A stretch of DNA of 64,000 nucleotides. Source: Oscillatoria sp. FACHB-1406. Its GTDB lineage: Bacteria; Cyanobacteriota; Cyanobacteriia; Cyanobacteriales; Spirulinaceae. The stretch is from assembly GCF_014698145.1 (NCBI RefSeq), contig NZ_JACJSM010000029.1, positions 1-64,000 of the forward strand. Direction: 5' to 3'. The notes beneath the pieces were generated by a model. That model made no database searches. It worked only from the letters and a program-made list of their open reading frames with translations, and had not been told where the DNA came from. Shown one piece after another: positions 3,880-6,151 of the stretch (its first letter is position 1; each line of letters starts with the position of its first letter). The position numbers and the translations under genes were made by a program.

Positions 3880-4929
3880 ATGGACTGGCAACCTGAATCG
3901 ACTCGGATTTTTGCGGTGGGAATTCTGGAATGGGAAGACTCTGACTTTTTAGAGCCTTTCCCCGATGCCGTTCCCAATCGATATGACGAGCAAATTGTTA
4001 ATTTCTTTCTCGAAGCGGGCGTACCGGAAGAGCAAGTTGTTTTTTTGAAAGATAGTGAAGCGACCTTAGAAAACATCGAAAATTCTTTCAATGAACTGTT
4101 AGAAAATAGCAGTGAAGATGACTTATTGATTTTCTATTTCTCCGGTCATGGCGGTTGGGATGGAGAAGAAGAAGAACATTATTTTTATAACTACGACGCG
4201 CAAGCGGATGATGTCGATACTCATTGGACAGTTTCCTCGATTTTTGACAAAATTGAAGAAACCTTTAATGGCAGCTATGCTTTATTAATGGCAGACTGCT
4301 GCCATTCGGGGGGATTGATTATTGAAGCGAAAGATAGAACCGATTCAGAGATTTCTTATGCTTGCGTGAGTTCGGCTTATACTCACAACTCTTCGACAGG
4401 AGATTGGACTTTTAGCGAAAGTTTATTTAAAGGTTTAACGGGAAATCCGGAAGTCGATTTGGATAACGATGGGGAGATTTCTCTGTATGATTTTTCTCGC
4501 TACGCCGAGCTAGAAATGGCTTTTATTGAGGAACAGAAATCGATGTTTGTGACGACGGGCGATTTCGATTCCCAGATGGTTTTAGCGCGGGTGGAAGAAG
4601 AAGCAGAGTTTGAGAGTCTGCGACGGATGGAAGTGGAATGGGAAGGCGATTGGTATAAAGCGAAAGTTTACAGAGATGGGGAAGGGAGCTTATGGGTTTA
4701 TTATATTGATGATGGGTCAGAAGAAGAAGAAGTCGATCGCGATCGCATCCGAGCTTACGAACCGGAAATGTTCGAGGTTGGCGATGAAATCGAAGCACTT
4801 TCAGAAGATGAATGGAAACCGGCTACAGTAAAGAAAGCATGGTACGGTTTACATTGGGTTACTTACGACGATCTTTCCGACGATTATGATGAATGGCTCG
4901 GTTCGGAATACGTGCGCGAGCGCGAGTAA
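3880..4929 (+). CDS. Caspase-family (orthocaspase) protease with tandem Tudor-like domains
   Basis: 349 residues. The p20-like caspase fold spans about 5-235. The catalytic His is His90 in FYFSGHGG and the catalytic Cys is Cys141 in MADCCHSGG, both intact, so a peptidase active on basic (Arg/Lys) sites is expected from the C14 metacaspase family. Residues 193-204 form an EF-hand-like Ca loop (DLDNDGEISLYD), in keeping with calcium-dependent metacaspases. Two related C-terminal modules (about 246-295 and 296-347; EGDWYKAKVY..YYIDDGS and DEWKPATVKKAWYG..TYDDLSDDYDEW) look like Tudor/Agenet-type barrels. The protein is strongly acidic. There is no signal peptide, so it is cytoplasmic. The caspase call is firm; the Tudor-like call rests on pattern. 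Confidence 0.85.
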   Translation: MDWQPESTRIFAVGILEWEDSDFLEPFPDAVPNRYDEQIVNFFLEAGVPEEQVVFLKDSEATLENIENSFNELLENSSEDDLLIFYFSGHGGWDGEEEEHYFYNYDAQADDVDTHWTVSSIFDKIEETFNGSYALLMADCCHSGGLIIEAKDRTDSEISYACVSSAYTHNSSTGDWTFSESLFKGLTGNPEVDLDNDGEISLYDFSRYAELEMAFIEEQKSMFVTTGDFDSQMVLARVEEEAEFESLRRMEVEWEGDWYKAKVYRDGEGSLWVYYIDDGSEEEEVDRDRIRAYEPEMFEVGDEIEALSEDEWKPATVKKAWYGLHWVTYDDLSDDYDEWLGSEYVRERE

Positions 4930-5212: not shown

Positions 5213-6151
5213 ATGTCCGATAACAACGTCCTAGAAACCCGAGAAACCCAACCGATAGTTCCTTCCCCAACCGAAGAACTTATCCCCCCCAATTCCGGAC
5301 AACCGCAGCAGTGGTTTGGAATTGCCGTGTTGCTCGGTCCGCCGGGATTGTGGCTGCTTCTATTATTAGTATTGCCAACGTTGGTGATTCTAGAATTAAG
5401 TTTAGTTCCCGGAATTCGTCCGGGAGATGTTGTTAATCCCAGCGGTTTAGAGAACTATTTTCAAGTCTTCGATCCGATTAATTTGCGGGTGTTGACGCGA
5501 TCGCTCTTTTTCGCAACCGGCGCAACAATTCTATGCCTTTTGCTCGGTTTTCCCGTCGCTTATTGGATTGCAATCGTGGTCGGTAAGCGCTGGCGCAATC
5601 TCCTATTGCTGGGGTTTATTCTTCCCCTTTGGACTTCTTCGCTACTGCGCTCTTATGCTTGGATTACCATCCTACGACCGACGGGCGTTCTCAATACAGC
5701 CTTAACGTTTATCGGTTTGCCCGCACTGGATTTATTGAACCGATCGCCTGCCGTTTTTATCGGTATGGCTTACAGTTATTTGCCTTACATGGTACTGATT
5801 CTCTATGCGTCTTTAGAAAAACTCGATCGCCAACTGTTGGAAGCATCGGCGGATTTAGGGGCGAATCCTTGGGAAACCTTCTGGAAAGTTACAATTCCCC
5901 AAACTTTTCCTGGAATTGCAGCCGGTTCGCTTTTAGTTTTTATCACGGGCTTAGGCGATTTTGTCGATCCGGAACTCCTCGGCGGCGCGTCTAGTATGAC
6001 GGTTTCTCGTTTGATTTACAATCAGTTTTTGGGTGCGTCGCGGAATTGGGGATTTGGTTCGGCGGCGAGTGCGATTTTGATTTTTGCTGTTAGTATTGCG
6101 ATCGCGCTCCTGCTTAAATACGGCGATAAAAATGCCACCACTTCAGCGTAA
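5213..6151 (+). CDS. potB: Spermidine/putrescine-type ABC transporter permease PotB
   Basis: 312 residues with about six membrane segments starting near residue 35, after a Pro-rich cytoplasmic tail. It has the binding-protein-dependent permease EAA loop (LLEASADLGANPWETFWKVTIPQ, about 215-237) that contacts the ATPase. Sequence order and the LRSYAWITILRPTGVLN segment match PotB of polyamine importers. No potA, potC or potD gene is adjacent, so its partners must be encoded elsewhere. The substrate (polyamine) is by family, not demonstrated. Confidence 0.85.
   Translation: MSDNNVLETRETQPIVPSPTEELIPPNSGQPQQWFGIAVLLGPPGLWLLLLLVLPTLVILELSLVPGIRPGDVVNPSGLENYFQVFDPINLRVLTRSLFFATGATILCLLLGFPVAYWIAIVVGKRWRNLLLLGFILPLWTSSLLRSYAWITILRPTGVLNTALTFIGLPALDLLNRSPAVFIGMAYSYLPYMVLILYASLEKLDRQLLEASADLGANPWETFWKVTIPQTFPGIAAGSLLVFITGLGDFVDPELLGGASSMTVSRLIYNQFLGASRNWGFGSAASAILIFAVSIAIALLLKYGDKNATTSA

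Follow-up and report, generated by a model that had tools for sequence, protein, structure and literature searches.

Caspase-like peptidases are among the commonest partners of bacterial chromo-like domains, and fusions of the two have been described in planctomycetes, cyanobacteria, bacteroidetes and chloroflexi (Kaur et al., 2018; PMC5906684). The accessible parts of that account call such fusion proteins 'consistently' secreted and suggest that they may bind groups resembling methylated lysine in murein or matrix. They also put forward bacterial chromo/Tudor-like domains as one source of eukaryotic chromatin readers (Kaur et al., 2018). Within the open-access literature searched, the fusion is described only in PMC5906684, as far as the accessible text of these sources goes. 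Where the term 'tudor' occurs in the accessible text of two other papers, it denotes the Tudor staphylococcal nuclease, which is a caspase substrate (PMC7475262, PMC5756287).

Cyanobacterial orthocaspases have been surveyed separately. The accessible portion of a study of 473 such proteins lists 35 accessory domains, none of them Tudor, Agenet or chromo (PMC8283722), and the terms 'tudor', 'agenet', 'chromo' and 'SH3' are absent from the main text of that paper. Calcium activation of metacaspases has been tied to sites in both p20 and p10, whereas orthocaspases are described as calcium-independent, the one studied biochemically being active without calcium, according to the available sections of a further paper (PMC5756287).

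The window analyzed here is a stretch of 64,000 nucleotides from Oscillatoria sp. FACHB-1406 (contig NZ_JACJSM010000029.1, positions 1 to 64,000). One of its genes encodes a protein of the published kind of fusion without the secretion feature, and the architecture itself is not new. As in the fusions of Kaur et al. (2018; PMC5906684, accessible parts), a caspase-like peptidase and chromo-like SH3-fold modules share one chain; those fusions keep their aromatic cage residues in part and include the EF-hand among the combined domains. Unlike the secreted fusions of that account, the window protein and eight other close members of its family have no leader, and in the window copy the cage is partly lost. 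The protein also resembles cyanobacterial orthocaspases in having a C14 p20-type protease domain, a His-Cys dyad and a C-terminal accessory domain, but it differs from those listed in the accessible text by a calcium-type loop inside the fold (PMC8283722, PMC6426788). In place of accessory domains such as WD40, AAA_16, FGE-sulfatase and GUN4, it carries a tandem of chromo/Tudor/Agenet-like modules (PMC8283722). The initial annotation regarded these modules as an unusual orthocaspase partner. That judgment is borne out by the 35 domains listed in the survey (PMC8283722). The fusion itself had already been described in 2018, cyanobacteria included (PMC5906684).

The gene and its caspase domain

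The open reading frame at 3880–4929 on the plus strand is intact, starts with ATG and encodes 349 amino acids. It is taken as a complete gene for a leaderless caspase with a tandem of chromo/Tudor/Agenet-like modules on the basis of the ORF call, 11 further close orthologs and the upstream sequence, in which no in-frame ATG, GTG or TTG precedes the first stop before 3880. On the opposite strand, the single frame that was translated across this interval is broken by stops. The initial annotation had placed a caspase with two C-terminal modules at exactly these coordinates, and this observation is confirmed. A whole-protein Pfam hmmscan gives Peptidase_C14 (PF00656) at 38.8 bits (cut-off 21.4) and Agenet at 33.1 bits (cut-off 27, two stretches summed); of the nine families reported at E ≤ 10, TUDOR (18.2 bits, cut-off 23) and EF-hand_1 (13.1 bits, cut-off 25.4) fall below their cut-offs. 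The sole NCBIfam match is a caspase model at 44.1 bits, under its cut-off of 140. By sequence, the closest solved relatives are plant metacaspase-4 over residues 48–156 (E 7.4e-07) and, as a weak match to residues 250–320, the tandem Tudor of 53BP1 (E 0.21). The domain identities are near certain. Seven C14 matches in total occur in the genome of the window.

Conservation was read from a 16-row alignment of 12 close members (the window protein among them), three divergent proteins from a single genome and one C-terminal remnant. The caspase/metacaspase-type catalytic domain spans residues 6–237 (3895–4590, plus strand), as supported by the Pfam C14 match and by the AlphaFold model, which for the full chain has a mean pLDDT of 89.8 and a pTM of 0.89. 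His90 (codon 4147–4149, plus strand) lies in YFSGHGG and Cys141 (codon 4300–4302, plus strand) in DCCHSGG; both are kept in all 15 caspase-bearing rows, as are D36 and D139. The catalytic pair reported in the initial annotation is intact. D36 and D139 occupy what we take to be the positions at which metacaspases hold the P1 basic residue in the S1 pocket. VIA-align superposes the model on metacaspase-4 with a Z of 20.1 (rmsd 2.5 over 206 residues) and on legumain with a Z of 20.2 (rmsd 2.4 over 194), and a caspase-8:c-FLIP entry reaches a Z of about 20. The alignment with metacaspase-4 extends through residue 235 and includes the latter half of the fold. No separate p10 family is reported for the protein by Pfam or NCBIfam; the lack of a p10 domain is the definition of an orthocaspase in the accessible part of PMC6426788.

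An EF-hand/dockerin-like calcium-type loop, DLDNDGEISLYD, occupies residues 193–204 (4456–4491, plus strand) of the caspase fold, within its second half. By its pattern, it is presumably a calcium loop of the dockerin/EF type. All 12 close members, the window protein among them, have the pattern DxDxDxxx(T/S)LxD, and in the three divergent proteins its last position is Glu. The EF-hand-like loop of the initial annotation accordingly stands as a conserved loop, while the EF-hand as a family match is rejected at the Pfam cut-off. A calcium gate of the protease may be suggested from this pattern, and it would be unusual, since orthocaspases are described as calcium-independent.

The C-terminal tandem and its aromatic cage

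Because the fold matches of the whole chain covered mostly residues 1–240, the tandem was modelled and searched separately. The resulting model (pLDDT 89.7, pTM 0.67) has five strands in each module, and in Foldseek it matches best the tandem Tudor domains of FMRP (E 1.2e-05) and FXR2 (E 3.0e-05), with further matches to 53BP1 and to the tandem Agenet domains of AGDP3 and ADCP1 in complexes with H3K9me peptides. Structure prediction and fold search thus place the modules among the SH3-like barrels of the Royal (chromo/Tudor/Agenet) superfamily. The combination of a protease with two Tudor/Agenet-like modules, as first annotated, is borne out by C14 and Agenet scores above the Pfam cut-offs and by fold matches that agree with them.

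Module 1, a chromo/Tudor/Agenet-like barrel, spans residues 247–293 (4618–4758, plus strand), as placed by the best Agenet stretch (251–292), the AlphaFold strands and the loop lengths. Its support comes from the Foldseek matches of the tandem, the Pfam Agenet stretches and the homology between the modules, the VIA-align matches listed for the tandem covering mostly module 2. Module 2, which is chromo-barrel/Tudor-knot-like, spans residues 299–347 (4774–4920, plus strand) and superposes on the MRG2 chromodomain (4pl6; Z 10.2, rmsd 0.9 over 53), Tbtudor (Z 10.8, rmsd 1.1 over 54) and MRG15 (Z 10.5, rmsd 1.5 over 57) in VIA-align; a profile match to MRG701 and the comparison of cage residues add to the assignment. 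The tandem profile matches L3MBTL3 (E 5.8e-06, weak repeats summed), MRG701 (8e-06), MRG2 (4.9e-05) and, across both modules, FXR1 (E 8.2e-05). Among the 16 rows, 15 match Agenet at E ≤ 0.1, 12 match Tudor_4, 10 TUDOR and 9 Tudor-knot.

The two modules are homologous to each other (hhalign probability 98.3, E 2.3e-14, with profiles based on nine of the 16 rows), in keeping with the relatedness noted at first, although the repeat is invisible at the DNA level. A profile of 15 relatives, with the window protein left out, scores its C-terminus at 123.5 bits, while the highest of the 1980 shuffles reported out of 2000 reaches 11.3. For a second profile, built from 20 single modules that were cut from 11 proteins belonging to a different cyanobacterial family, the score is 14.3 and the best shuffle reaches 12.5 (1997 of 2000 reported), which is a narrow margin. 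Composition as the source of the module match is rejected by these shuffles, with a small margin for the independent profile. On the other side of the balance, a six-frame search with Pfam Agenet found no match at E ≤ 0.1 in the window's own genome; among 14 control genomes, one had a match and none was above the cut-off.

In fold and tandem arrangement, the modules resemble FMRP/FXR, ADCP1/AGDP3, 53BP1 and MRG2/MRG15, and, going by the alignment, module 2 of most orthologs also shares their cage positions. Unlike these eukaryotic readers, the tandem is bacterial, is fused to a protease and has a shortened cage loop in module 1. The two barrels are also set differently to each other, with an rmsd of about 7–11 over the pair. 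Cage positions in module 2 were assigned from the MRG701 alignment and from residues that we take to form the MRG15 cage. At these positions the window protein has K313, Y329, L332 and Y336, so that two of four are aromatic. Of the 12 close members, nine have aromatics at all four positions and two others at three; the divergent proteins have 3, 3 and 1, and the remnant (L054) has 3. In module 1, the loop that bears two cage positions is shortened in all 12 close members; relative to the divergent proteins, it is two residues shorter in nine and one residue shorter in three, including the window protein. In addition, the window protein has Glu where 10 of the 12 carry the Trp of EEWV or a similar motif. 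Given the lost aromatics in module 2 and the shortened loop in module 1, the case for reading of the methyl-lysine type is strongest for module 2 of the relatives and weakest for the window copy.

Proposed substrate docking and the role of the tandem

It is quite possible, if short of probable, that the protein works in the cytosol as a cysteine protease of the orthocaspase type and docks its substrates on an exosite in the same chain. The net charge of the tandem is −19 in the window protein, −8 to −20 in 11 of the 12 close members and 0 in L011. A charge of −19 fits basic ligands, and recognition of modified or basic peptides by the modules, as proposed in the initial annotation, is plausible. 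In the proposed mechanism, the acidic tandem would capture peptides rich in Lys or Arg, and in most orthologs a methylated lysine or similar cation would be held in the aromatic cage of module 2. Substrates docked in this way would be presented to the protease and cut after Arg or Lys, with calcium bound at the 193–204 loop possibly gating the activity. Since the cage of the window copy is eroded, docking there would rest more on charge.

The same erosion would be explained if the tandem read no ligand and were instead an architectural or autoinhibitory element, such as a stand-in for p10 or Ig3 or an oligomerisation surface. MALT1 has a C-terminal domain that regulates the enzyme, and the MALT1 caspase-Ig ranked first when the whole chain was searched with Foldseek. 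The shortening of the module 1 loop throughout the close members and the partial loss of the module 2 cage in the window would also suit such a role. A scaffold, however, would have no need for the four cage aromatics that most close members keep in module 2, and the tandem is found apart from the caspase in other proteins. An architectural or autoinhibitory role is rather unlikely.

A more specific form of the docking proposal would make the protein an intracellular reader-protease, in which a cytosolic, calcium-gated caspase chooses its substrates by a mark such as lysine methylation. This is unlikely as it stands. If true, it would represent an in-cell mark-reading system in bacteria, whereas the published account puts such modules outside the cell.

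Relatives, export and genomic surroundings

The eleven close orthologs share 54–66% identity with the window protein. The three divergent proteins share 26–31%, and their genome is rated 94% complete and 9% contaminated. Four homologs (54–64% identity) lie among named contigs; they come from two cyanobacterial MAGs, from Cylindrospermum sp. NIES-4074 and from Argonema antarcticum (L008), whose copy has a full cage. A search for the same fusion across cyanobacteria, suggested at the outset, was carried out at E ≤ 1e-15 and matched 6 of 386 genomes in a phylum sample, counting the window's own and the one with three divergent copies; an order sample gave 10 of 388, counting the window's own genome and one that matches only residues 248–349. 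At E ≤ 1e-5, 16 of the 59 nearest relatives (the window's genome counted) have a match, which spans the full length in only two. The caspase and tandem fusion is rare in cyanobacterial genomes.

In two close pairs, purifying selection acts on both the caspase and the modules. NG86 dN/dS values for caspase, module 1 and module 2 are 0.034, 0.152 and 0.046 for L056/L057 and 0.252, 0.261 and 0.357 for L008/L050; YN00 gives 0.064 and 0.397 for the caspase and module 1 of the first pair and 0.371 and 0.374 for the second, with no value for module 2. Pairs that include the window protein are saturated. In two genomes, only the reader end is present: L054:9511-9855 (minus strand) carries the tandem without a caspase and without an in-frame ATG, GTG or TTG, and L066:1429-1665 encodes a 79-aa single-module fragment. 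Both look like gene remnants. On one contig, L058:414-2850 (minus strand), two divergent caspase and chromo-like genes stand head to tail.

From readings of start codons and residues, any N-terminal extension amounts to at most 9 residues in 9 of the 12 close members, the window protein among them, and such proteins have no room for a leader. Two further close members (L010 and L047) are ambiguous in this respect, and one (L011) carries a leader in which the stretch SRRKFTQLIL is Tat-like. Among the divergent relatives, the two copies of L058 have hydrophobic, Sec-like leaders and L059 a lipoprotein-like leader. An extracellular role is thus likely for part of the family, and the window protein probably acts inside the cell. 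The distribution of leaders also bears on the published proposal, in which the family would be a secreted or envelope protease whose modules bind methyl-lysine-like moieties of murein or matrix peptides, with the caspase outside the cytoplasm (Kaur et al., 2018; PMC5906684, accessible parts). The leaders named above would suit it, as would the short tandem-module proteins with signal-like N-termini in other cyanobacteria, but given how few close members could accommodate a leader it is quite unlikely as an account of this protein, for which cytosolic docking is preferred.

Chromo-like modules occur in other cyanobacterial proteins as well. With the tandem profile at E ≤ 1e-4, 21 of 386 cyanobacterial genomes were matched: five by the close fusion (own included), one by the divergent fusion, one by the 79-aa fragment and 14 by other proteins. 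One leaderless family of about 430–450 aa has two acidic Tudor-knot-like modules (L099:6887-8191, L091:6879-8192, L090, L092–L098 and L100), and ten of its members are 61–80% identical to the query member L099. In the one member scanned, Pfam reports only chromatin-reader-type domains, all C-terminal, and the conserved N-terminal part of some 300 residues has no match. Across the 11 loci of this family, no neighbour family is common to at least four. Its existence indicates that chromo-like proteins without a leader also occur outside the caspase fusion. Short proteins of about 130–150 aa contain two Agenet/Tudor-knot modules (L068:1267-1653, L071, L083 and L084); their N-terminus is signal-peptide-like in L068, L083 and L084, and less clearly so in L071. 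One 147-aa protein joins the start of the 430–450 aa family to one module.

Upstream of the gene lies a DUF4340 protein, and downstream on the same strand as the gene is an ABC-transporter inner-membrane component (permease; 5213–6151, BPD_transp_1 59.9 bits). The other strand encodes a DUF4330 protein. Neighbours were clustered from the ORFs around 15 loci, which include one repeat of L011, the remnant L054 and some contigs of 4–7 kb, together with the first 16 kb of the window. The only families found in at least three loci were kinase/zinc-ribbon-like and response-regulator-like groups at varying distances. With no neighbour family at a fixed distance in three or more independent loci, an operon or partner gene as a clue to function is rejected, and this fits a self-contained protein. 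In Cylindrospermum sp. NIES-4074, an ARMT1-like gene (230.9 bits) follows the fusion gene (L009:9126-10355), a neighbour family seen in under three loci. Between 3000 and 5400, no terminator-like site was found, and the one promoter-like site lies inside the gene, where shuffles average 3.4.

The window protein has no match at E ≤ 1e-5 in 72,556 plasmid records, and no relative was confirmed in viral contigs (62 pattern stretches); a mobile origin is rejected on both counts. Matches of the divergent relative L058 to 21 plasmid records lie in the caspase part and cover no more than 55% of the protein. That the caspase is a cell-death or anti-phage effector with modules that sense an infection signal is very improbable, for although a PADLOC model (37.9 bits, residues 48–169) and the patchy distribution would accord with it, the name of that model says no more than 'caspase' and its match lies in the protease part, and no shared neighbours, plasmid matches of the window protein or confirmed viral relatives were found.

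The cytosolic docking protease that is tentatively preferred here is encoded by a leaderless single-gene fusion, a small, self-contained protein suited to the question of what such a domain recognises within a bacterial cell. The same fusion, most orthologs of which have a full cage in module 2, allows asking whether a reader can steer a caspase, and the loss of cage residues in the window copy provides a natural comparison between orthologs.
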